Shown: positions 3,088-27,021 of the stretch, in pieces
How the letters are laid out: each line of letters opens with the position of its first letter
Position numbering within the stretch: the stretch's first letter is position 1
NCBI GenBank assembly: GCA_017556805.1
Contig: JAFYMC010000008.1
Location: forward strand, 1 to 64,000
Source: Lachnospiraceae bacterium
GTDB lineage: Bacteria > Bacillota > Clostridia > Lachnospirales > Lachnospiraceae
Direction of reading: 5' to 3'
Length of the DNA: 64,000 nt
Notes under the pieces: model-generated
Databases searched by the model: none
What the model saw: only the letters and a program-made list of their open reading frames with translations
What the model was told of the DNA's origin: nothing
Position numbers and translations under genes: made by a program

Positions 3088-4851
3088 ATGAAAAAGGTAA
3101 GTTATTATTTGAAAAAGTATTGGTTCGCATATCTGATTGCGGTAGTTTGCCTGGTGACGCAGATTACCATAGATATGTTGAACCCCCAGGTGACCATTCG
3201 GATTATCGATGAGGTCATCGGCGAGGGAAAGCTTTCGTTGTTAAAGTATTCTCTCATAATGATGCTGGTGTTTGCTTTGGGGCGCGTAGTCTTCGGTTAT
3301 GCCAAGGAGTATTTGTTCGATACCACCAGCTTTAAAATCAGTGTGGATATCCGGAAGGGGCTGTTCCGGCATATTCAGAAGCTTTCCGTGAATTACTTTG
3401 ACCGGAGTAATACCGGAGAGATCATGTCCCGTGTCAAGGACGATGTGGACCGTATCCAGGCGGCCTTCGGTTATATCGGAATGCTGAGTATTATGGTTGT
3501 GATTCACATGTCTATGGTTATTTTTTGTATGGTGCGTATCAGCCTGAAGCTGGCACTGGTTCCGCTCATCGCCGTTCCGGTGTGTGCGGTGCTGGCGATT
3601 GTACTGGAGCGGAAGTTAAATAAGGTTTACGAGGATATCAGTGAGGAAAATGCGGAAATGAATACCGTGGCGGAGGAAAATCTGGCCGGTGTTCGTACCG
3701 TAAAGGCTTTTGCCAGGGAAAAGCATGAGATTTTAAAGTTCATGCAGCATAATAAAAAGTATTATGAGCTGAATATGCGTCAGTCTAAGCTTTGGATTCG
3801 CTATTATCCGTTTTTCCAGATGATTTCCAAGGTGTTGCCGATTACGTCGGTCATTATCGGTGGTGTAATGGTAATGAACGAAGAGATTACGTTGGGAACC
3901 CTCGGCGCATTTATCGAGTATTGTAACAATGTGGTCTGGCCGTTGGAAATGCTGGGATGGCTGTCCAATGAGCTGGCGGCGGCATTTGCTTCCCGGAAGA
4001 AAATTAATAAAATTTATAACGAGACGTCCATGATTGCGGAGCCGGAACAGCCGGTGGTGCTTCCGCAGGTAAGAGGCGAGATTTCCTTTGAAAACGTGGG
4101 CTTTGCGTTGGAAGATAAGGAAATTTTACGGGACGTATCTTTTTGTGTTCCGGCAGGGAAGACGCTTGGGATTATCGGTGCTACGGGCTCCGGTAAGAGT
4201 TCCTTAATCAATTTGCTGCTTCGTATGTATGATACGACTGTCGGTGCCGTAAAGCTGGACGGAGTGGATGTAAAGGAGCTTTCGCTCGGGCAGGTACGTG
4301 GGAGCGTATCCCTTGTGATGCAGGATGTGTTCCTGTTCTCGGATTCCGTTAGCGAAAATGTAAAGCTGGGTAGAAAGAATACGATTACGGATACGGAAGT
4401 GGCAACGGCTCTACAGAAGGCTCAAGCAGCCGGCTTTGTGAAGAAGTTGGAAGCGGGGGCGGAGACCATTATCGGTGAGCGCGGTGTCGGCTTATCCGGC
4501 GGTCAGAAGCAGCGAATCAGTATGGCGAGAGCCTTTGCAAAGGAGGCACCGATTCTGGTACTGGACGATTCCACATCGGCACTGGATATGGAGACGGAGC
4601 GTATGATTCAGAAGACGCTCAGGGAGATTACCGGTATTACGAAGCTGATTGTTGCCCATCGTATTTCCTCTGTACGACATGCGGATGAGATTATTGTACT
4701 GGAGGAAGGAAGAATTGCCGAGCGGGGCACCCATGAAGAGTTACTTGCAAAGAGAGGATATTATTACAAGACCTATCAGGCACAGTACGGAGAGTATATG
4801 GGAGTGCCGGAGGTTGCGGTTACGGATGAAGCCACTCCGATGACAGAATAG
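3088..4851 (+). CDS. ABC exporter half-transporter with degenerate Walker B (BmrC/LmrC-like)
   Basis: The 587-aa protein starts at ATG 3088 after GGAGGAG. An N-terminal six-helix exporter domain (about 1-310) is fused to an ATPase domain (about 330-570). Walker A is GATGSGKS (364-371), the signature is LSGGQ (469-473), and the H-loop His is 524. Walker B ends LDDS, placing Asp494 where the catalytic Glu normally sits. This substitution marks the non-catalytic site of heterodimeric exporters such as BmrC/BmrD, LmrC/LmrD and TM287/288. The partner is encoded 13 bases downstream. Probable role: export of drugs or lipid-like compounds across the cytoplasmic membrane. Substrate not predictable. 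Confidence 0.9.
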   Translation: MKKVSYYLKKYWFAYLIAVVCLVTQITIDMLNPQVTIRIIDEVIGEGKLSLLKYSLIMMLVFALGRVVFGYAKEYLFDTTSFKISVDIRKGLFRHIQKLSVNYFDRSNTGEIMSRVKDDVDRIQAAFGYIGMLSIMVVIHMSMVIFCMVRISLKLALVPLIAVPVCAVLAIVLERKLNKVYEDISEENAEMNTVAEENLAGVRTVKAFAREKHEILKFMQHNKKYYELNMRQSKLWIRYYPFFQMISKVLPITSVIIGGVMVMNEEITLGTLGAFIEYCNNVVWPLEMLGWLSNELAAAFASRKKINKIYNETSMIAEPEQPVVLPQVRGEISFENVGFALEDKEILRDVSFCVPAGKTLGIIGATGSGKSSLINLLLRMYDTTVGAVKLDGVDVKELSLGQVRGSVSLVMQDVFLFSDSVSENVKLGRKNTITDTEVATALQKAQAAGFVKKLEAGAETIIGERGVGLSGGQKQRISMARAFAKEAPILVLDDSTSALDMETERMIQKTLREITGITKLIVAHRISSVRHADEIIVLEEGRIAERGTHEELLAKRGYYYKTYQAQYGEYMGVPEVAVTDEATPMTE

Positions 4852-17095: not shown

Positions 17096-18115
17096 ATGGA
17101 AAAAGACGATATTATTATCAGAGAGGCGGTCATCCATATTTTGGATTCCATGGTGGGAATGCCGGTGCTTTCGGATTCCTTGCTTGAGATGGGACCGGAT
17201 TTGTGCGATTTTTTGCGGAATCATATTTATAAGCTGTTGTCGGGAGATGATTTGAAGAATTGTGTGTTTGATACGGAGTCTTCCGAGGTGTATGCGGTAC
17301 TCAGAGATTTCCGGGAAGAGAATCTGATTCCGGTGAGCAAGCAACTGGCGGGACAGCTTTACGAGATTATGAATTCTAACATTGATATTCCGGCGGGGGA
17401 TGTGTTTTTTGTGACTTTTCAGGTGGAGTCAAGACAACATCTGGCCATCCTTAAGATGAATTACAAGGAAGTGTATGTGCATTATACCTCTCTGGGTGAG
17501 CAGGACGAGAATATCAATGAAGTCATGAAGCAGACGGCAGCGCTGCCACTGGCGGGCGGTAAGCTTTCCGAGGCGGTACTTATCGACCTTGAGGGCGATG
17601 CGGTACGCCTGGTGGAGAAGAAGTTTCCGGTAAACGGAGAGAAGGTCAACTACCTGTCGGAGCTGTTCTTACATTGTCATGCCAGAATGTCCCAGAAGAC
17701 GAAGCTGGACCTTGTGACGAAAGCGGTGGAGCAGATTAATAAAAAGTACTACGACGATGATTTCGAGCAGAAGATGAAGACAAAGAGCGTGCTTCATGAG
17801 GAATGCGCGAAGTCCGAAGGCCCGATTAAGGTAGAGGAAATTGTAGAGAAAGTCTTTAAGGAAGCGGCTCCGGAGATTAAAGAGGAGTTTGTGGAGAAGC
17901 TGGAAAAGTACAAGCTTCCGAAGGAAGAGATTAAAATTCAGAGTGAGAAGACTACAAAGAAACTGGAAAAACAGTTCCTTACCACCGACAGCGGCATTGA
18001 AATTAATATTCCGATGGAGGAGTATAATAACAAGCAGCACGTGGAGTTTATTACGAATCCGGACGGTACGATTTCGGTGCTGATTAAAAATGTGAATCGG
18101 ATTACCAGTAAGTAG
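17096..18115 (+). CDS. Nucleoid-associated protein, NdpA/YejK-like
   Basis: The 339-aa product starts at ATG 17096 behind AGGAGAAAA. Its overall pattern matches the 37-kDa nucleoid-associated (NA37) family: an N-terminal helical region, the motif FFVTFQVESRQHLAILKM near 105-120, and a C-terminal basic/acidic alternating helical segment from about 215. In Escherichia coli the relative YejK is a spermidine nucleoid protein that interacts with topoisomerases. The role here is inferred only. It is followed by a terminator shared with the convergent gene at 18137-18400. Confidence 0.7.
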   Translation: MEKDDIIIREAVIHILDSMVGMPVLSDSLLEMGPDLCDFLRNHIYKLLSGDDLKNCVFDTESSEVYAVLRDFREENLIPVSKQLAGQLYEIMNSNIDIPAGDVFFVTFQVESRQHLAILKMNYKEVYVHYTSLGEQDENINEVMKQTAALPLAGGKLSEAVLIDLEGDAVRLVEKKFPVNGEKVNYLSELFLHCHARMSQKTKLDLVTKAVEQINKKYYDDDFEQKMKTKSVLHEECAKSEGPIKVEEIVEKVFKEAAPEIKEEFVEKLEKYKLPKEEIKIQSEKTTKKLEKQFLTTDSGIEINIPMEEYNNKQHVEFITNPDGTISVLIKNVNRITSK

Positions 18116-18456: not shown

Positions 18457-18485
18457 TTGACGCATATTACGGTTTATGGTAAAAT
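18457..18485 (+). promoter_or_regulatory. Promoter of the radical SAM/lipoprotein operon
   Basis: TTGACG (18457-18462), a 17-base spacer and TAAAAT (18480-18485), 48 bases before the start codon and divergent from the ylmC/ymxH-like gene. Confidence 0.65.
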
Positions 18486-18533
18486 TTTAATATGGATATC
18501 GTATGATTTTTTATTGCAAAAGAGGGGGGACTT

Positions 18534-19610
18534 ATGAGACTGACAAATGAGCAAAAAGTACAGCATATGACGGATCTTGCGGCCTATAAGAGAAGGCTTT
18601 GGAGACAGCCCCAGCTTCGAAATCTTTTTTTGGAGCTGACCATGGACTGCAATGAGCGTTGTCTGCATTGCGGAAGCCGGTGCGGTGAGGTAAAAAGCGA
18701 GCTTTTAAGTGTAGAGACCTATAAGACTTTTTTAGATAAGATAAAGGCAGATTTTGGGACAAAGGGACTTCAGATTTGCGTGACGGGCGGAGAACCGCTT
18801 CTTCGACCGGAGTTTTTTGAAATTATGGGCTATGCCCATAAACTTGGCTTTCACTGGGGCATGACCAGTAACGGGACGCTGATTGATACGGAGACAGCAA
18901 AGAAACTGCAGGAGTGCGGGATGGGAACGATTTCTATCAGCATCGATGGGTTACCGGAGACTCACGACTGGTTCCGGCAGACACCGGGCGGTTATGCTGC
19001 GGCCATGAGTGGCGTGGAGGCCTTGATTTCCAACGGAAGCTTTCAACATGTGCAGATTACGACGGTGGTACATAAAAAGAATATCGGGGAATTGGATGCA
19101 TTGTATCGTATTATGGAGAACGTGGACATTGATTCCTGGCGTGTCATTAATCTGGAGCCGATGGGACGGGCGGAGGATATGCCGGAGCTTTTGCTTTTCC
19201 CGCAGGATTATGTGACCTTGTTTGAGTTTATCAAGGAAAAGCGCAGACAGGGAGAGCCGGTGCAATACGGATGCAGCCATTATCTGGGTGTAGAGTACGA
19301 GAGAGAGGTCAGAGATTGGTATTTCCTTTGTAACGCCGGTATTTATACGGCGGCAATCATGGCCAACGGGGATATCGGAGCTTGTCTTGATATCGAGCGC
19401 AGGCCGGAGCTGATTTACGGCAATATTTTAAAGGATGATTTTACGGAAGTGTGGAAGAGCGGGTTCGGAGCATACCGTCGGAATCTGTCCGAAGAAAACG
19501 AGACCTGCCGTACCTGTAAGGACCGGGAATTTTGCGGCGGAGGTGCGTTTCACAGCTGGGATTTTGACAAAAATAAGCAGAAGATGTGCTTTAAAGGAAC
19601 GTTGTTTTAG
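18534..19610 (+). CDS. Radical SAM/SPASM enzyme (rSAM/lipoprotein-system type)
   Basis: The 358-aa protein starts at ATG 18534 after AGAGGGGGG. The radical SAM cluster motif CNERCLHC supplies Cys39, Cys43 and Cys46, followed by GGEP (85-88). The SPASM region has Cys247, 266, 284, 325, 328, 334 and 352, enough for auxiliary 4Fe-4S clusters. Such enzymes modify peptides or proteins by radical chemistry. The phrases LRNLFLELT, YGCSHYLG, VRDWYFLCNAG and YGNILKDDFTEVW match my recollection of the Bacteroidetes family TIGR04133, which accompanies putative lipoproteins. Four tandem lipoprotein-like genes follow, the first 61 bases downstream with no terminator, making them the likely substrates. Confidence 0.85.
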   Translation: MRLTNEQKVQHMTDLAAYKRRLWRQPQLRNLFLELTMDCNERCLHCGSRCGEVKSELLSVETYKTFLDKIKADFGTKGLQICVTGGEPLLRPEFFEIMGYAHKLGFHWGMTSNGTLIDTETAKKLQECGMGTISISIDGLPETHDWFRQTPGGYAAAMSGVEALISNGSFQHVQITTVVHKKNIGELDALYRIMENVDIDSWRVINLEPMGRAEDMPELLLFPQDYVTLFEFIKEKRRQGEPVQYGCSHYLGVEYEREVRDWYFLCNAGIYTAAIMANGDIGACLDIERRPELIYGNILKDDFTEVWKSGFGAYRRNLSEENETCRTCKDREFCGGGAFHSWDFDKNKQKMCFKGTLF

Positions 19611-19671
19611 AGATAACATCAACAGGATGATTTATAACGGATTTGTATGACGAAGGGAAAGGGATGTGAGG

Positions 19672-20385
19672 ATGAAGAAGAGCAAAACGGCATAATTATT
19701 TACATCAATCTTTGCAGCGGCAGTGAATATGAACGGATGCGGGGTATACGGACCGCCGGAGTTTGATCCGAGCCAAAATATTGCTCAACCGGAATACGGA
19801 GCTCCGTACTATATGGAACCGACGATGGCGGTGACGACGACAGAGATGGACTGGTTAAGGGAGAACCGCTATGCGGTGTTTCGTGTAGTATCTGTCCCTG
19901 AGGCACTTCCGGAAGAAGAAGAGATTCCGGAGTATGTGATTTGCGGAGTGGAATTGTTGTCCTGTTATGCGGGAAACGATGAGAATTTAAGTAAGCTATC
20001 CCGGATTTCGTTTCGTGGTGAGGACCGACACCTGTTTGCCGAGGAAAATGTGATATTTGCGGAACTCGGGGAAGGAGTGTCGGAGGACGAAACATTTTGT
20101 TATGAAGTGAAATACGATGCATATGGCCCGGTAATGAATCGTTTTATTGACGGTAAATTAGTAGTTTGGGAAGAATTCAGAAACCACGAGAGCTATAAGT
20201 ATTTTTCGGATTTTAACGGCTATATGGAATGGAATTATCTGGTGAATCAAACCGGTGTTGTAAACGAAATAACCGGTGAACCGGTGTACTTTGCGGACGG
20301 GATGACGGTAGAGGAGGCAGCATTGTTCTTTACGGCGCTTCAGAAGGCACAGGAAGCGAACGAAAACGCATCCGGAAACGAGTAG
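19672..20385 (+). pseudogene. YGPP lipoprotein paralog 1, stop codon in the signal peptide
   Basis: From ATG 19672 the frame reads MKKSKTA, then TAA (19693-19695), then continues uninterrupted to 20385. Counting the stop as codon 8, the lipobox Cys falls at residue 23 and is followed by GVYGPP, as in the three sister genes. Sister gene 3 has TTA (Leu) at codon 8, so one T-to-A change explains the stop. The rest encodes about 215 residues homologous to paralog 2. Translation could restart at GTG 19723 or ATG 19729 but would lose the signal peptide. Either a recent null allele, a read-through product or a sequence error. Confidence 0.75.
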
Positions 20386-20422
20386 CTCCGGACGAAACCG
20401 GAGGTGAAAGGAGTGGGATAGT

Positions 20423-21136
20423 ATGAGAAAAGGAACGAAACTATTGGTAACCGCATCGGTATTTGCGGTAGCAATGAACGCAAATGCATGTATGTACGGA
20501 CCGCCGCCGGAGGGCTATGAGCGTATTCAGTCAGCTCCGCCGCCGGTGGTGGAAAATTTACATGTCATAGCAGAACCGCCGGATTGGTATTTTGCTGCCA
20601 TGGGACAGTATGCAGTGGTCCGATTGCTTTCGGCGGCGGAAACAGAGTCGGTATTTGACGGTCAGACCGGGGGAGCGGTATGTGAGGTTGAGCTTTTGTC
20701 TATTTATAACCCAAGGTTGGATTTGGGGTTACCGTCCAAAATCATAATTCCGGTAGAGGATGCTTCTTCGTTTTCCCAAGGAGATGTCTTATTTGTTGAA
20801 TTGGGGTCGATGAAATGGGACGGAGAAGCGTATACAACATGCCAACTTATGGAAAATGAAGAAGGGGCAATTTATGCGCCGTATGTGGACAATCGGCTGG
20901 TTCTTACGGAGAGGTTCACAAGGAGTTTCTTTTATGAAAGTCTGGCGGTCTATAATGCAGAAGTGCAAGAGTACCGGGTACAGTCGGAAAAGGGTGAAAG
21001 CTATTACATGGAGTACGGAACCCAGGCGTTTGAAGAAGGCATGACGCCGGAGGAAACAGAGGTATTCTTTCAGGAGTTTCAGAAAGCAAAGAAGGATTAT
21101 GAAGTGGTTTTGAATACAACAAACGGAGTGAAGTAG
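20423..21136 (+). CDS. YGPP lipoprotein-like paralog 2
   Basis: The 237-aa product starts at ATG 20423 after GGAGTGGGA. A short signal-like segment ends at Cys23 (ANAC), immediately followed by MYGPPPEGYE (YGPP at 25-28). The mature region (about 55-230) is homologous to paralog 1: both have AVxRxxS, VELLS and the C-terminal EEGMTPEE/DGMTVEE block. The lipobox is weak because position -3 is not Leu or Val. Family function unknown. Its place after the radical SAM enzyme suggests that the Tyr-Gly-Pro-Pro segment near the acyl-Cys is a modification target. Confidence 0.7.
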   Translation: MRKGTKLLVTASVFAVAMNANACMYGPPPEGYERIQSAPPPVVENLHVIAEPPDWYFAAMGQYAVVRLLSAAETESVFDGQTGGAVCEVELLSIYNPRLDLGLPSKIIIPVEDASSFSQGDVLFVELGSMKWDGEAYTTCQLMENEEGAIYAPYVDNRLVLTERFTRSFFYESLAVYNAEVQEYRVQSEKGESYYMEYGTQAFEEGMTPEETEVFFQEFQKAKKDYEVVLNTTNGVK

Positions 21137-21147
21137 GGAGGAGTTCA

Positions 21148-21438
21148 ATGAAAAAAGGAAAAAAGCTATTAGTAACCGCATCCTTGGTATCCACGGCAAT
21201 GACTGTGGGCGGATGCCGGTTCCTACCATGGATGAATGAAAATGCGGAAGTCTACGGACCGCCGCCGGATTATTATGTGACGGCAACGCCTGTTCCGGAG
21301 GCGGAAGAAGAAGCGGAGGGGCGATTTACGCCGACGCCGGAGGAGGATGAGGTATTTTCTCCGGAGGGGAATTTGGTAGAGTGTCTGTATGGACCGCCGT
21401 TGGATAGAGGTGCTATCCTGAAAGGAGAAGAAGAGTAG
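21148..21438 (+). CDS. YGPP lipoprotein-like paralog 3, short form
   Basis: The 96-aa product starts at ATG 21148 behind GGGAGGAG, 11 bases after paralog 2. It has a signal segment with lipobox TVGGC (Cys23), then RFLPWMNENAEVYGPPP (YGPP 36-39), an acidic Pro/Thr-rich stretch and a second copy of the motif as ECLYGPP (81-84). It lacks the large domain of paralogs 1 and 2. The first 90 bases are almost identical to paralog 4, indicating recent tandem duplication. Confidence 0.7.
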   Translation: MKKGKKLLVTASLVSTAMTVGGCRFLPWMNENAEVYGPPPDYYVTATPVPEAEEEAEGRFTPTPEEDEVFSPEGNLVECLYGPPLDRGAILKGEEE

Positions 21439-21450
21439 GGAGGACGCCGA

Positions 21451-21708
21451 ATGAAAAAAGGAAAAAAGCTATTAGTGACCGCATCCTTGGTATCCGCGGC
21501 AGTGACTGTGGGCGGATGCCGGTTTTTGCCATGGATGAATAACGATCAGCCGGTCTACGGTGTACCCATGGACCCTCGTGTTACACTGTCACCGATTCCG
21601 GACGATGTGGAAGAAGAGGTGGAAGGTGCGGATGTTACGCCGGTAGCGGAGGATGCGGACATCATAACGGCGTCGAATGTGGATAATAAGGAGAAGGAAC
21701 GTGAGTGA
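21451..21708 (+). CDS. YGPP lipoprotein-like paralog 4, short form
   Basis: The 85-aa product starts at ATG 21451 after GGGAGGACG. Its signal segment and lipobox TVGGC (Cys23) with RFLPWMN match paralog 3, followed by PVYGVPMD (YGVP at 36-39) and an acidic tail. It has only one motif copy. Its last codons overlap the start of the next gene by 8 bases, implying translational coupling with the membrane protein downstream. Confidence 0.7.
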   Translation: MKKGKKLLVTASLVSAAVTVGGCRFLPWMNNDQPVYGVPMDPRVTLSPIPDDVEEEVEGADVTPVAEDADIITASNVDNKEKERE

Positions 21709-22804
21709 GGTTGTTGGTTATATCGTATTAATACTTGTAATCGGTGTAATTCCCGGAGGATTGACTCTCTGGAATTGTTTCAATTTATTTGCTAAGTCGC
21801 CGAAAAAGCCGAAGCTGGCGTTCTGGCTGACCTTTTTCATCGGAGGAATACTATATGTTTTGCTATACGAAATCAGCTTCGATACCGCTGGAGACTGGTA
21901 TGAGGTGATTTATGACATCCAGTTTCATTACAGTATTTCCACCCAATACGGTGCGAGTGTTTATATTCCGGCGATACTCGGTGCTTTGGGAATGATGCTC
22001 TTGTGCGGGTGTAAGACGGAGAAGTTTTCGCCCCTTGTGTCGGCGTTTGCTGTTGCCGCAACGGTGCTGTTTCAGGTGCTTCAGATTGTGTATGCGGTAC
22101 AGATATCGAAACACATCAGTGAAGGCATTCTTCTTCTTTTTTACGTGTATCATGTGAACCTGTTTGTTTTGGCGGTGACGGGAGTCAGACGTCTGATGAA
22201 ACAGCAGATGCAGTATTATGAGAGTGTAAGAAGCGCCGGGGAGGAGCCGGAAGAAAGTACCGTAAAACAAGGCCGGCTGTACCGGACGGTGAATACCTTC
22301 TCAAGGTATACAGGGCTGATTTTTGTTTGTCTGTTTTTCATTATTGCAGTGTTTGAGATATTGTTTATTTTGTTCGGACAGGGCGTGGATGCGCCCATAA
22401 AGGCGTTCACGGATACGGCAGGGTGGACATTCTCCAAGCAGATTCCGCCGCCACCTATGGAATATGACGGGCATTACCTTTGCACCGTTGCGGCAGGCGG
22501 GCATAAGCGCGTGGTGAGGCCGCTACGTTACGGCCGAAGACGGGGCCAGACGATTGTGGTAAACCGTCAGCTTTGTATCGCTAATGCCTTTGAGGATTTT
22601 ATCAAAGAGAAGCTGCCGTGGTTTCATAAGGCGGTGCGGAACTTTTACGATACCCACGGGTATCCGTTGTCAAAGCACATTACGACACCGGCCCGGGCGG
22701 ATGTGGTGTATGTTTTGATGAAGCCGTTTGAGTGGTGCTTTTTGATTTTTTTGTATTTGTTTGATGTAAGACCGGAGGAGCGTATCGGAAGACAGTATCG
22801 GTAG
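21701..22804 (+). CDS. Polytopic membrane protein, DUF6688-like
   Basis: The start is set at GTG 21701, a few bases after AAGGAGAAGG; this overlaps the stop of paralog 4. The 367-aa protein has hydrophobic segments at about 5-27, 36-54, 85-102, 112-131, 135-158, 205-230 and near the C terminus. The soluble C-terminal part contains GHYLCTVAAGGHKRVVRPLR and RADVVYVLMKP, which I associate with DUF6688. Function unknown. Translational coupling to the lipoprotein genes suggests that it acts with them, for example in surface handling of the product. Confidence 0.65.
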   Translation: MSEVVGYIVLILVIGVIPGGLTLWNCFNLFAKSPKKPKLAFWLTFFIGGILYVLLYEISFDTAGDWYEVIYDIQFHYSISTQYGASVYIPAILGALGMMLLCGCKTEKFSPLVSAFAVAATVLFQVLQIVYAVQISKHISEGILLLFYVYHVNLFVLAVTGVRRLMKQQMQYYESVRSAGEEPEESTVKQGRLYRTVNTFSRYTGLIFVCLFFIIAVFEILFILFGQGVDAPIKAFTDTAGWTFSKQIPPPPMEYDGHYLCTVAAGGHKRVVRPLRYGRRRGQTIVVNRQLCIANAFEDFIKEKLPWFHKAVRNFYDTHGYPLSKHITTPARADVVYVLMKPFEWCFLIFLYLFDVRPEERIGRQYR

Positions 22805-22814
22805 GAGAAGGAAT

Positions 22815-23147
22815 ATGAAGAGAAGATTAAAACTGATCATTAGCTGTGTGTGTATTATATTAGACAGCCTCGCAACGCCATTTATTTTTAGTTATTTATA
22901 TTTAGCTTTTGGAATGTTGATTTGGACTTGTAAAAATAACTGTTTTGAGGTTCAACAGCTTGTTTATTGTCTTGTAATGGTTGTTCTGTTCCTTGCATAT
23001 AGTGTGTCGTTTGTGTGGTCAAACATATTTCTTTGCAAGCTTCTTTATCGTAAAAATATAAAGCTGGTTATTATACCGGTTCTTCTTTCTATAATTCTGA
23101 CTCTGATTTTCTTATTTACGGTAGCTTGGAATTTTGAGTGGGAATGA
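22815..23147 (+). CDS. Small hypothetical membrane protein, 110 aa
   Basis: ATG 22815 follows AGGAGAAGG, 10 bases after the previous stop. Three hydrophobic segments (about 5-36, 47-70 and 80-104) make up nearly the whole protein. Its codon use is more AT-rich than its neighbours. Not recognised. A terminator 38 bases downstream ends the radical SAM/lipoprotein operon. Confidence 0.55.
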   Translation: MKRRLKLIISCVCIILDSLATPFIFSYLYLAFGMLIWTCKNNCFEVQQLVYCLVMVVLFLAYSVSFVWSNIFLCKLLYRKNIKLVIIPVLLSIILTLIFLFTVAWNFEWE

Positions 23148-23184
23148 AACTTTCATTTTTTCGGCCAAGAAATATCAATATAAC

Positions 23185-23214
23185 AAGAGGCCTACATAAG
23201 TAGGCTTCTTTTTT
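23185..23214 (+). terminator. Terminator of the radical SAM/lipoprotein operon
   Basis: An 11-bp stem AAGAGGCCTAC/GTAGGCTTCTT with one G-U pair and loop ATAA is followed by a T tract. Confidence 0.9.
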
Positions 23215-23264: not shown

Positions 23265-23328
23265 GTGCCCAACATCTTGAAAAAGGGAGAGTTTGTGCGG
23301 TATATCTTGTGGCACAACATATATGTGT

Positions 23329-24237
23329 ATGGAGAATCGGTTAATTGCAGAGATACAGAAGTTAAAGAAAGAGAAGAATGCCATCATCTTAGCCCATTAT
23401 TATGTAAATGAGGAGTTACAGAAGCTGGCGGATTTTGTGGGGGATTCCTTTTATCTGGCCAAGGTGGCAAAGGGAACCGATGCGGATGTGGTAGTCTTTT
23501 GCGGCGTTTCCTTTATGGGAGAGAGTGCAAAGATGCTGAATCCGGAAAAGACGGTGCTGATGCCGGATATGACGGCGGATTGTCCCATGGCACATATGGC
23601 GCAGGTGGCGAAAATCAAGGAGCTGCGGGAGCAGTACGAGGATTTGGCAGTGGTTTGTTACATCAACTCCACGGCGGAGCTAAAGAGCTACAGTGATGTG
23701 TGCGTGACCTCCTCCAATGCGGTGAAGATTGTAAAGGCATTGCCGAATCAGAATATTTTCTTTATTCCGGACGTAAATCTGGGCCGGTTTGTGGCGGAGC
23801 AGGTGCCGGAAAAGAATGTGATTTTAAACGACGGATATTGTCCGATTCATAAAGATATCACCGGGACCGGTGTGAAGGAGCTGAAAAAGAAGCATCCGAA
23901 CGCGCTTGTGATGGCGCACCCGGAATGTAAGGAAAATGTGGTGAAGCTGGCGGATTACGTAGGCAGTACGGCGGATATGATTGCCTTTGCAAAGAACAGC
24001 GAGTGCAAGGAGTTTATCGTGTGTACCGAGGAAGGTGTGAATTACCGTCTGCGGGAGGATAACCCGGACAAGAAGTTTTATTTCGGCGGAGAATATTTGT
24101 GCCGTGATATGAAGTTAAATACGTTGGAAAAGATATTGCATGTACTTAAGACCGGAGAGAACGAAATGAAGCTCCCGGAAGAGCTTTGTGAGCGGGCGGT
24201 ACAGCCTCTTGAACGGATGCTGGAGTTGGCGAAGTAA
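23329..24237 (+). CDS. nadA: Quinolinate synthase NadA
   Basis: NadA condenses iminoaspartate with dihydroxyacetone phosphate to give quinolinate, using a 4Fe-4S cluster. The 302-aa form from ATG 23329 starts MENRLIAEIQKLKKEKNA, as expected for the family. The start is uncertain: AAGGGAGAG at 23283-23291 fits no in-frame start well, and TTG 23293 or ATG 23323 are alternatives. Family motifs include ILAHYYVNEELQ, VCYINSTAELK, AHPEC and CTEEGVNYRL; the Cys residues in VFCGVSFMG, AHPEC and CTEEG are the likely cluster ligands. First gene of the NAD operon. Confidence 0.95.
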   Translation: MENRLIAEIQKLKKEKNAIILAHYYVNEELQKLADFVGDSFYLAKVAKGTDADVVVFCGVSFMGESAKMLNPEKTVLMPDMTADCPMAHMAQVAKIKELREQYEDLAVVCYINSTAELKSYSDVCVTSSNAVKIVKALPNQNIFFIPDVNLGRFVAEQVPEKNVILNDGYCPIHKDITGTGVKELKKKHPNALVMAHPECKENVVKLADYVGSTADMIAFAKNSECKEFIVCTEEGVNYRLREDNPDKKFYFGGEYLCRDMKLNTLEKILHVLKTGENEMKLPEELCERAVQPLERMLELAK

Positions 24238-24338
24238 GGACGGGAGTAAGAGCCGAAAGTACGGAAATATGCACGGAATAGTGTAAATAAAGAGCCTATT
24301 GTCAACGGTTGCCGTAAAGGCAGAAGGATGTGACGATT

Positions 24339-25676
24339 ATGAATAATAAAAACAGAAAAACCGATATTGTCATTATCGGCTGCGGTGTGGCGGGCTTGTA
24401 TTGTGCCCTGCATTTGCCGAAGGACAAGCAGATTGTGATTGTATCCAAGGATGAGTTTGAGCGAAGCGATTCTTTTTTGGCCCAGGGCGGTATTTGTGTT
24501 CTGCGGGATGAAGCGGACTACGATTCCTATTACGAAGATACCATGAAAGCGGGGCATTACGAGAATAATCCTCGTTCTGTGGAGCTGATGATTCGTTCTT
24601 CGCAGGAGGTCATCGGAGATTTGATTGCCTGCGGTGCGGAGTTTGAGAAGGATGAGAACGGATACGTTTATACGAGAGAGGGAGCTCATTCCAGACCGCG
24701 GATTTTGTTCCATGAGGACGAGACCGGAAAGGAGATTACCTCAAAGCTTTTGGCTACGGCGCGGAAGCTCCAAAACGTTACGTTAATCGAGCATTATACC
24801 ATGGTGGATTTGCTGACGAAGGACAACGTCTGCTACGGTATTGTGGGTCATGACAAGGACGGTGTCTATTCTACGATTACGGCGGATTACACGGTGTTAG
24901 CCACCGGCGGTATCGGTGGATTGTACGAGCATTCCACCAACTTTAGGCATTTGACGGGAGATGCCCTGGCGGTGGCCCTGCGGCACGACATTAAGCTTCA
25001 GAATATTGATTATATTCAGATTCACCCGACGACGCTGTATCAGGAAAAGCCGGGACGGAAGTTCCTCATTTCCGAGTCGGTACGGGGCGAGGGGGCCATA
25101 CTCCTAAACTCCAAGGGAGAACGGTTTGTGGATGAACTGCTTCCGAGGGACGTAGTGACCCAGGCCATCCGCAAGGAGATGAAACGGGAGGGCACCAAGC
25201 ATGTGTGGCTGTCTCTGGCACCGATTCCGGAGGAAGAGATTCGGAACCATTTCCCGAACATTTACGCCAAGTGTCTGGAGGCGGGCTATGATATTACAAA
25301 GGAGCCCATCCCGGTGGTGCCGGCCCAGCATTATTTTATGGGCGGTGTTGCGGTGGACGAGTACAGCAAAACCTCCATGGACCGACTGTATGCGGTAGGT
25401 GAGACCGCCTGCAACGGTGTCCACGGAAAGAACCGTCTGGCCAGCAATTCGTTGCTTGAAAGTCTTGTGTTTGCAAAACGGGCGGCGGGACAGATTGCAG
25501 AAGGATATATTACGTTAGATGAGGAAAAGGAACGGCAGGTATTAAGTAAGCCGGGGATAAGGGAGAAAGCGACCTACGCCGGTTATGCGGAACAATATAA
25601 AAAAGCGGTGCTTGCCGCCATCGAAAAGGAGAAAGATTATCATGAACAATATCAGTATGACGTTGAACGCGGATGA
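24339..25676 (+). CDS. nadB: L-aspartate oxidase NadB
   Basis: NadB oxidises L-aspartate to iminoaspartate for NadA, using FAD. The start is ATG 24339, with AGAAGGA 10 bases upstream; an in-frame GTG at 24330 is too close to that site. The 445-aa product has the FAD-binding motif VIIGCGVAGLYCA at its N terminus, QGGICV, and the conserved HPTTLY, SESVRGEGA and GETACNGVHGKNRLASNS blocks of the fumarate reductase/aspartate oxidase family. It is slightly shorter than E. coli NadB at the C terminus, and its end overlaps nadC by 35 bases. Confidence 0.95.
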   Translation: MNNKNRKTDIVIIGCGVAGLYCALHLPKDKQIVIVSKDEFERSDSFLAQGGICVLRDEADYDSYYEDTMKAGHYENNPRSVELMIRSSQEVIGDLIACGAEFEKDENGYVYTREGAHSRPRILFHEDETGKEITSKLLATARKLQNVTLIEHYTMVDLLTKDNVCYGIVGHDKDGVYSTITADYTVLATGGIGGLYEHSTNFRHLTGDALAVALRHDIKLQNIDYIQIHPTTLYQEKPGRKFLISESVRGEGAILLNSKGERFVDELLPRDVVTQAIRKEMKREGTKHVWLSLAPIPEEEIRNHFPNIYAKCLEAGYDITKEPIPVVPAQHYFMGGVAVDEYSKTSMDRLYAVGETACNGVHGKNRLASNSLLESLVFAKRAAGQIAEGYITLDEEKERQVLSKPGIREKATYAGYAEQYKKAVLAAIEKEKDYHEQYQYDVERG

Positions 25677-26493
25677 GTTGATTTTAAGCGCATTAAAGGA
25701 GGATATCAGCAGTGAGGACGTATCCACCAATGCGGTGATGCCGGATTATCAGTTGGGCGAAGTGGAGCTACTTTGTAAGGAAGACGGTGTCATTGCGGGA
25801 CTGCCGGTATTTGCAAGAGTATTCGAGCTTTTGGATGCAAATACCGAGGTGACTTTGTTTGCCAAGGACGGCGATACGGTGAAAAAGGGACAGAAGTTAG
25901 GTGTCATCCGCGGTGATATCCGTGTTCTTTTGTCCGGTGAGCGTACCGCACTGAATTATTTACAGCGTATGAGCGGTATCGCTACTTATACCCGTTCCAT
26001 TGCGGTACTGTTTGAGGGCAGTAAGACGAAGCTTTTGGATACGAGAAAGACTACGCCGAATATGCGTATTTTCGAGAAGTATGCGGTAAAGGTGGGCGGC
26101 GGCTATAACCACAGATACAACTTAAGCGACGGTGTACTTTTAAAGGATAATCATATCGGTGCGGCAGGCAGTGTGGCAAAGGCAGTTGCAATGGCAAAGG
26201 AATATGCACCGTTTGTGAGAAAGATTGAGATTGAAGTGGAGAATCTGGATATGTTTAAGGAAGCGCTGGATGCCGGTGCCGACATCATTATGCTTGATAA
26301 TATGAGTGTGGAGGATATGAGAGAGGCAGTGCGTCTGGCGGCAGGCAAGGCGGAAATCGAGTGCAGCGGTAACGTAACGAGAGAAAACGTAGAGCGTCTC
26401 ATTGATATCGGTGTAGACTACATTTCCAGTGGTGCCTTGACCCATTCCGCGCCGATTTTGGACCTTTCCTTAAAGAATTTGCACGCAATCTAA
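25642..26493 (+). CDS. nadC: Nicotinate-nucleotide pyrophosphorylase (carboxylating) NadC
   Basis: NadC converts quinolinate and PRPP to nicotinate mononucleotide. The start is ATG 25642, preceded by AAAAGGAGAAAG; the longer frame runs inside nadB without a ribosome site. The 283-aa product contains EDISSEDVST, GERTALNYLQRMSGIAT, DTRKTTPNMR, GGGYNHRYNLSDGVLLKDNH and EIEVEN, covering the quinolinate and PRPP binding residues. It completes the de novo NAD branch of this operon. Confidence 0.97.
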   Translation: MNNISMTLNADELILSALKEDISSEDVSTNAVMPDYQLGEVELLCKEDGVIAGLPVFARVFELLDANTEVTLFAKDGDTVKKGQKLGVIRGDIRVLLSGERTALNYLQRMSGIATYTRSIAVLFEGSKTKLLDTRKTTPNMRIFEKYAVKVGGGYNHRYNLSDGVLLKDNHIGAAGSVAKAVAMAKEYAPFVRKIEIEVENLDMFKEALDAGADIIMLDNMSVEDMREAVRLAAGKAEIECSGNVTRENVERLIDIGVDYISSGALTHSAPILDLSLKNLHAI

Positions 26494-26505
26494 AGGGGGA
26501 GCTTT

Positions 26506-27021
26506 ATGAAGGGAAAAGAACGCAGAAAGGAAATTACGGCGCTGATTATGGCGGCGGAGGAACCGGTATCGGGCTCTGTGCTTTCGGAATGCCTGGGGGT
26601 GTCCCGTCAGATTATCGTGCAGGATATTGCTATGTTGCGGGCGGAAGGATACGATGTACTTTCCACCCACCAGGGCTATGTAATTACCAAGGGACCTTTT
26701 GCGGAGCGTGTGTTTAAGCTGCGCCATACCAGTGAGCAGACGGAAGACGAACTGACCACCATTGTGTCCATGGGCGGCACTGTGGTGAATGTGTTTGTCT
26801 GGCATAAGGTATACGGCAAAGTAGAGGCGAATCTGAATATTTTTTCGGAGCGCAGCATTGCCCAGTTTATGGACGGAATCAAAAGCGGAAAATCCAAGGA
26901 ACTGATGCATATTACGGAAGGGTATCATTACCATACGGTGCGGGCGGATTCGGAGGCGGTATTGGACGAGATCGGGGCTGTATTGGATAAAAAGGGCTAT
27001 ATTGTGCCGGAAATCATGTAA
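26506..27021 (+). CDS. niaR: Niacin-responsive transcriptional repressor NiaR
   Basis: The 171-aa product starts at ATG 26506 behind AGGGGGAG, 12 bases after nadC. It has an N-terminal winged helix-turn-helix (about 5-60; VSRQIIVQDIAMLRAEGYD is the recognition region) and a C-terminal 3H domain with conserved His residues in LRHTSEQ, VWHKVYGK and HITEGYHYHTV, which bind metal and nicotinate in this family. NiaR represses NAD synthesis and niacin uptake genes when niacin is plentiful. Its position at the end of nadABC predicts autoregulation. Confidence 0.92.
   Translation: MKGKERRKEITALIMAAEEPVSGSVLSECLGVSRQIIVQDIAMLRAEGYDVLSTHQGYVITKGPFAERVFKLRHTSEQTEDELTTIVSMGGTVVNVFVWHKVYGKVEANLNIFSERSIAQFMDGIKSGKSKELMHITEGYHYHTVRADSEAVLDEIGAVLDKKGYIVPEIM

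Follow-up and report, generated by a model that had tools for sequence, protein, structure and literature searches.

A radical SAM/SPASM enzyme and its Tyr-Gly-Pro-Pro-tagged neighbours in Lachnospiraceae: a possible splicease of exported proteins

Background

What does a radical S-adenosylmethionine (SAM) enzyme act on when its gene stands at the head of a row of lipoprotein genes? The question is raised by a unit at positions 18457-23214 of a 64,000-nt stretch of DNA (the whole stretch is hereafter called the window) from a Lachnospiraceae bacterium (GCA_017556805.1, contig JAFYMC010000008.1), where a radical SAM/SPASM gene is followed by four paralogous lipoprotein genes and then by genes of two putative membrane proteins. 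The lipoproteins carry a short motif, usually Tyr-Gly-Pro-Pro (YGPP), here called the tag, and comparison across related loci makes it very probable that the enzyme modifies it. Pairs of a similar kind bear the family names TIGR04133 (enzyme) and TIGR04134 (lipoprotein); searches of the open-access literature for these families, for YGPP with radical SAM and for radical SAM-associated lipoproteins yielded no paper, and Scott 2022 (Chem), on the spread of spliceases, together with a 2024 paper on leader-independent splicing, may cover part of the subject.

Results

Enzyme and tagged paralogs in the window

The enzyme, the paralogs and their tags are as follows, with Asn at -6 counted from the tag Tyr:

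18534..19610, + strand: radical SAM/SPASM enzyme, 358 amino acids (aa), sister to TIGR04133
19672..20385, + strand: paralog 1, YGPP/YGAP lipoprotein gene, broken by an in-frame TAA at codon 8
19747..19758, + strand: YGPP tag of paralog 1, without Asn at -6
19795..19806, + strand: YGAP tag of paralog 1, Asn at -6
20423..21136, + strand: paralog 2, lipoprotein, 237 aa, Cys23, one YGPP tag, C-terminal domain without family match
20495..20506, + strand: YGPP tag of paralog 2, Asn at -6 and within the signal peptide
21148..21438, + strand: paralog 3, lipoprotein, 96 aa, Cys23, two YGPP tags
21253..21264, + strand: first YGPP tag of paralog 3, Asn at -6
21388..21399, + strand: second YGPP tag of paralog 3, Asn at -6
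21451..21708, + strand: paralog 4, lipoprotein, 85 aa, Cys23, one YGVP tag
21556..21567, + strand: YGVP tag of paralog 4, Asn at -6

The enzyme matched Radical_SAM (PF04055, 6e-22) and SPASM (PF13186, 1.2e-07). The initial annotation, made from the sequence of this stretch, had described a CxxxCxxC motif and a seven-Cys SPASM region, and the alignment bears this out: the motif is C39/C43/C46, followed by C50, all kept across 81 aligned enzymes, and the seven C-terminal cysteines (247, 266, 284, 325, 328, 334 and 352) are conserved in 81 of 81 except for two gaps, one row at Cys334 and one at Cys352. It had also described four paralogs with Cys23 and a YGPP or YGVP motif, which is right for paralogs 2-4 and overlooked the stop in paralog 1. 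Counted from ATG 19672 the TAA is codon 8 (19693-19695), the remaining frame is open and the listed open reading frame (ORF) starts at GTG 19723, thus the window copy has no intact signal peptide; an open copy is present in the close relative L008, and the TAA is either a recent break or an assembly error. At L009:5396-5971 the C-terminal domain of paralogs 1 and 2 has a relative that stands alone, with neither signal peptide nor tag. The window holds six YGxP tags, two each in paralogs 1 and 3, and five of the six have Asn at -6.

Co-occurrence of the enzyme and the tag

Genome contigs were scanned for related loci, and the best 80 of 105, ranked by likeness to the window enzyme, were compared; many of the contig titles refer to the gut of deer, goat, buffalo or reindeer (uncounted). 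An initial scripted count gave a tagged lipoprotein in 64 of the 80 loci. A same-strand YGPP ORF lies within 1.5 kb of the enzyme in 70 of 80 (86 of 768 mechanical ORFs of at least 50 aa), against none of 1893 ORFs, on either strand, more than 3 kb away. The conserved neighbourhood that the initial annotation had predicted is thus found, and the absence of co-occurrence that it had named as fatal is not. Ten loci are without a nearby YGPP ORF (L040, L042, L049, L051, L058, L063, L072, L074, L078 and L082). The partner in L040 is a zinc-ribbon protein with YGSP and a C-terminal hydrophobic segment, that in L058 a lipoprotein with YGPGP beside the enzyme, and in L072, L074, L078 and L082 a YGPP lipoprotein is found elsewhere in the genome, in L072 perhaps merely through a contig break; the enzyme is near a contig end in L042 and L072. 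BLAST found no untagged gene family that accompanies the enzyme in over 6 of the 80 loci, although a short, fast-changing gene could escape such a search.

The enzyme is patchily distributed: of nine further genomes in the window's genus two have it (E <= 1e-60), and a phylum-wide search found it in 2 of 398 genomes, both from the window's family. Among 299 genomes sampled from that family (Lachnospiraceae), 18 have the enzyme (TIGR04133 model, E <= 1e-55). A strict YGPP partner stands beside it in 11 of these 18, and a partner in 16 of 18 under a wider tag definition fixed after the data were seen; of the five additional partners, the lipoproteins have VYGPAP, LYAPPP and YYGCP, the zinc-ribbon proteins IYGPKP and IYGPMP. 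A profile of the tag-bearing N-terminus (A1) matched at E <= 1.4e-5 in 8 of the 18 enzyme-positive and in 0 of the 281 enzyme-negative genomes, where the E-value line was set after viewing the list, no more than 25 first-look candidates were scored in any genome, and the profile includes the window's own rows and rows apparently identical to the G031 and G174 matches; the next-ranked matches mostly cover the signal peptide alone. Taken together, sequence comparison makes the pairing of enzyme and tagged protein nearly certain.

Two observations concern single loci. In L108, small YYGCPNS lipoproteins (1291-1530 and 3098-3289, motif near the C-terminus) flank an enzyme gene with one TAA. The contig of L010 is titled Alistipes sp.; the order-wide genomes gave the enzyme coordinates of window-family genomes (G406 as G031, G361 as G212), and this identity of coordinates suggests that L010 is probably mislabelled.

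The tag, its carriers and its position

The tag reads N-x4-[V/A/L]-Y-G-P-P and occurs in one to seven copies per protein. Among 181 tags in 75 lipoproteins, 144 have Val just before Tyr and 143 have Asn at -6; counted over 73 distinct lipoproteins, Asn is found in 137 of 174 tags, against a background of about 6%. The residue two after Tyr varies, being P, V or A in lipoprotein tags, S, T, M or L in partners from plasmid records, and also C.

A set of loci mostly unused in finding the motif came from the family to which G333, the genome of L066, belongs; there 23 of 140 genomes have the enzyme. These loci (L200-L211) are the best 12 of 24 matches, one of them a second G333 copy, earlier L114, and are called Coriobacteriaceae-type here from the title of L066 alone. 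All 12 have an adjoining protein with three to six YGPP tags, Asn is at -6 in 47 of 47 tags, and the tagged lipoproteins of all 12 have a TRRxF motif resembling that of the twin-arginine (Tat) route, which serves for the export of completed proteins. In L210 the tagged frame extends upstream of TRRxF, and one of its four tags lies there. The system, taken in the initial annotation to be a Firmicute version, is therefore present in Firmicutes and not confined to them.

The annotation had further placed the modification site beside the lipid anchor. The tag is not confined to that position: it is repeated up to seven times and is also found in zinc-ribbon proteins and in the tail of a DUF805 membrane protein. 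Strict YGPP partners other than lipoproteins include a zinc-ribbon protein in G280 and a DUF805 tail in G270. The DUF805 protein L096:2559-3305 has several YGPP in its C-terminal tail and lies directly 5' of the enzyme, and the zinc-ribbon proteins L102:2567-2884, L097:2510-2914 and L112:904-1296 have IYGP-x-P between two ribbons and, by eye, no signal peptide. Asn at -6 was also seen by eye in the DUF805 tail and in L040.

It might be argued that the tag is no substrate at all, the genes merely sharing an operon or a pathway and YGPP serving as an unmodified ligand motif. Proline-rich motifs can indeed bind unchanged, some enzyme genes have no neighbouring tag, and no modified product is known, a point that also counts against the splicing discussed below. 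On the other hand, the tag is the sole feature seen to be shared by partners of unrelated type (lipoprotein, zinc ribbon, DUF805 tail), the enzyme-negative genomes gave no strong match to the tag profile, and Asn is kept even within the signal peptide, which an exported ligand would not need. We regard this explanation as very improbable.

The position of the tag bears on when it is read. Asn at -6 is kept in 20 of 22 tags where it falls inside the signal peptide, in 123 of 151 where it falls past the lipid Cys, and in none of 8 where it would coincide with the lipobox, counts which ignore shared ancestry. A comparison by tag position gave 19 of 21 versus 7 of 39 (Fisher 4.7e-8, a statistic which likewise ignores shared ancestry). 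Six genomes have both a near and a far kind of lipoprotein: the near kind always has Asn, and the far kind lacks it in four, has it in 2 of 3 in L013 and throughout in L014. Where Tyr stands two after the lipid Cys, Asn stands four before it, thus if Asn is read, it must be read before the signal peptide is removed. Such an Asn within the signal peptide, together with the Tat-like motif of the Coriobacteriaceae-type loci, suggests that the tag is likely to be read before export.

Kinship of the enzyme

TIGR04133 is the best of 81 families for the window enzyme, as the initial annotation had supposed from a known Bacteroidetes pair, with 256.9 bits against a cut-off of 425, which was also reached in none of the 299 family genomes. 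Its companion guess failed, for TIGR04134 (cut-off 39.8 bits) matched none of paralogs 1-4 and nothing in the window's genome at E <= 0.01. Direct membership of the TIGR04133/TIGR04134 pair is thus rejected, the enzyme being below the cut-off and the lipoproteins without a match, whereas the Parabacteroides and Treponema pairs pass both models (Phocaeicola was not scanned). The comparison with that pair was nevertheless right in kind: the enzymes are sisters, and the Parabacteroides, Phocaeicola and Treponema enzymes adjoin lipoproteins whose X-Y-G-x-P segment (CEYGSP, CEYGTP and CYGMP) lies at the lipid Cys or close to it. The window-type tag differs in being usually YGPP, in having Asn at -6, in being often repeated and in its further carrier types. 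By sequence, the window system is of the rSAM/lipoprotein kind and adds to it a distinct tag and new carriers.

Plasmid records were also searched, with 40 of 51 matching records listed; the Treponema, Parabacteroides and Phocaeicola TIGR04133 enzymes ranked first, the Phocaeicola record carrying no annotation; among the matches listed there followed an Agathobacter enzyme (2e-34), a Nostoc TIGR04103 enzyme (2e-30) and the best MftC (9e-25). In a tree of 33 enzymes, built without the long AcgM branch, three TIGR04133 enzymes join the window family at 100/99, and both stand with the TIGR04103/GDL clade, hereafter the splicease-type clade, on one side of a branch supported at 98/94.8, which a separate tree supports at 91/85. 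The window enzyme shares with that clade Gly47, mostly Ser48, Trp202 and Glu256. Gly47, directly after the third cluster Cys, is common to 5 of 5 clade members and 0 of 9 other SPASM enzymes, Ser48 is found in 5 of 5 versus 2 of 9, Trp202 in 5 of 5 versus 1 of 9, and Glu256 in 4 of 5 versus 1 of 9.

Two other candidates for kinship were set aside. AhbD as nearest kin is rejected by the approximately unbiased (AU) test (p 0.00015), which is weak here since the AhbD-like rows do not form a single group and every one scores below the AhbD family cut-off. A match to antiviral viperin (PADLOC, 78 bits) reflects general radical SAM similarity, TIGR04133 scoring 257.

The splicease-type clade has a relative of described chemistry, PlpX, which excises tyramine at Xaa-Tyr-Gly, and Xaa-Tyr-Gly is likewise present in the window-type partners, its presumed substrates. 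We take PlpX to be a member of TIGR04103, from its described gene layout and on the assumption that IPR026482 corresponds to TIGR04103. The Nostoc enzyme passes the TIGR04103 cut-off of 725 with 853 bits, and is flanked by a Nif11-type precursor that ends in LYGLPPELF and by a 71-aa ORF, the layout described for PlpX and the small protein PlpY, with which it was shown to function (PMC11002830). Of five DUF1843 peptides next to two GDL-type enzymes, four contain Tyr-Gly or Tyr-Ala. An engineered tag that is spliced contains GYGLP (PMC10533398). Lipoprotein, zinc-ribbon, DUF805 and Nif11 partners share nothing beyond Tyr-[Gly/Ala] followed by Pro within three residues. Unlike the PlpX type, the window-type substrates are exported lipoproteins without a Nif11-type leader, and their splicing is putative.

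Remaining features of the unit and its flanks

18457..18485, + strand: sigma-70-like promoter match, TTGACG-17-TAAAAT with extended TG, just 5' of the enzyme gene
21701..22804, + strand: DUF6688 membrane protein by family match, with an in-frame ATG at 21677
22815..23147, + strand: 110-aa hydrophobic ORF, no family match, called membrane by eye
23185..23210, + strand: terminator-like hairpin of 11 pairs, the unit's strongest, which ends it

Promoter-like matches in the region are at chance level (10 observed, 8.3 expected). That the enzyme gene runs into the paralogs without a terminator, as initially stated, agrees with our scan, which found no terminator-like site between them on the + strand. 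Of the two membrane proteins named downstream, DUF6688 is backed by a family match and the 110-aa ORF by eye. The DUF6688 gene has a counterpart also 3' in L008 and none within 3.5 kb in L009. Both genes are probably outside the core system; they were rejected as core, as no untagged family recurs beyond the 6 of 80 loci given above. A 37-kDa nucleoid-associated protein (NA37, PF04245) lies 5' of the unit at 17096-18115, and 3' of it, at 23293-27021, is what appears by eye to be an NAD synthesis cluster (quinolinate synthase, aspartate oxidase, phosphoribosyltransferase and a regulator).

Discussion

From the observed tag motif, its co-occurrence with the enzyme and the relationship to the splicease-type clade, we infer the following chemistry. 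The substrates of the radical SAM/SPASM enzyme would be the neighbouring tagged proteins; in the cytosol, ahead of export and lipidation of the precursor, the enzyme would read N-x4-hydrophobic-Tyr-Gly-(Pro)-Pro and act once per tag. It would cut tyramine out of the backbone at the tag, which would make it a lipoprotein splicease, and the mature protein would be lipid-anchored with one to seven ketoamides.

A number of results weigh against tyramine excision. A conserved small gene like that of PlpY was not found by BLAST beside the enzyme in the 80 loci, although a short, fast-changing gene could escape. In hidden Markov model (HMM) searches the window enzyme scored 120 bits against TIGR04103, below its cut-off, and AhbD, NirJ2, MftC and TIGR04053 all outscore it. 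With AcgM and its long branch included, the joint clade is neither found nor rejected (log-likelihood difference 0.01, p 0.50); the 98/94.8 tree was built afterwards, leaving out AcgM, a Microvirga enzyme and four family rows. A grouping with MftC is barely rejected (p 0.048). The splicease-type clade consists of five plasmid-borne, putative enzymes, and no partner peptide was seen for those of Tropicibacter and Agathobacter, with one neighbour checked for each. As for the partners, no tagged one was found in 4 of the 80 loci (L042, at a contig end, L049, L051 and L063), G152 has no clear partner among the 18 enzyme-positive family genomes, and the G074 enzyme (L110) is without CxxxCxxC and has no tagged neighbour seen; it is a decayed copy. 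Asn at -6 is absent from the Bacteroidetes and Treponema partners and, by eye, from 3 of 4 zinc-ribbon partners. Lastly, LYGLP tags placed in FtsZ were unmodified at those sites (PMC10533398), so YGxP alone is insufficient even for PlpX.

A carbon-carbon cross-link within the tag would be another outcome, for instance a three-residue, cyclophane-like ring joining the Tyr ring to the residue at +2. SPASM enzymes commonly form such cross-links on Tyr rings, and the tag seems suited to one, as its Tyr is invariant and Gly-Pro-Pro would make a rigid turn. The four nearest solved chains by sequence include 5wgg, which we take to be CteB, and SkfB, both ring-forming peptide enzymes. Set against this, the ring partner of Tyr would be a variable residue without a preferred functional side chain, and the tree favours the splicease-type clade, though it contained no cyclophane enzyme. 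The HMM ranking and the absence of a detected PlpY-like gene lead us to rate splicing a little under one half and the ring at about a quarter. A Cys-Tyr cross-link was rejected as the general reaction, a non-lipid Cys being at -2 in just 16 of 181 tags.

Other changes to the tag come to mind with MftC of mycofactocin synthesis, whose model gave 132 bits for the window enzyme: an oxidation or decarboxylation at Val-Tyr like that in mycofactocin, an epimerisation, or a modification of Asn. MftC acts on a C-terminal Tyr, whereas the tag Tyr is internal; its substrate is a small peptide beside MftB, the genes mftA and mftB being neighbours, and it lies on the opposite side of the tree branch, though, as noted, its grouping with the window family is rejected only weakly. 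Like the window enzyme it is a SPASM protein, and it acts on Tyr and an adjacent Val (PMC8326336), the residue that so often precedes the tag Tyr. The conservation of Asn in most Firmicute tags and throughout the Coriobacteriaceae-type ones would fit its modification, but Asn is missing from the Bacteroidetes, Treponema and most zinc-ribbon tags, which makes recognition likelier than a modified site. We consider changes of this sort rather improbable.

Returning to tyramine excision, the purpose of the products would be a further step. Spliceotide products are termed protease inhibitors (PMC11117315), and by analogy a first guess would be that the tagged proteins trap proteases at the cell surface in the gut; as the purpose, protease inhibition is doubtful. 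The most complete form of the proposal is an exported-protein splicease, in which a portable Asn-x4-Val-Tyr-Gly-Pro-Pro tag would be edited before export on lipoproteins, zinc-ribbon and DUF805 proteins, the overlap with the signal peptide would set the order of modification and then export, and arrays of lipid-anchored ketoamide protease traps would be displayed; taken whole, with every part correct, it is somewhat unlikely.

For a named yet unexplained enzyme/lipoprotein pair there is now a concrete motif in the presumed substrates, a proposed sequence of steps and a reaction open to testing, and a short tag on unrelated carriers may be of interest to protein engineers. If splicing is true, the reach of backbone editing would include surface proteins held by a lipid anchor in gut and rumen bacteria, which would carry repeated reactive groups at the cell surface.

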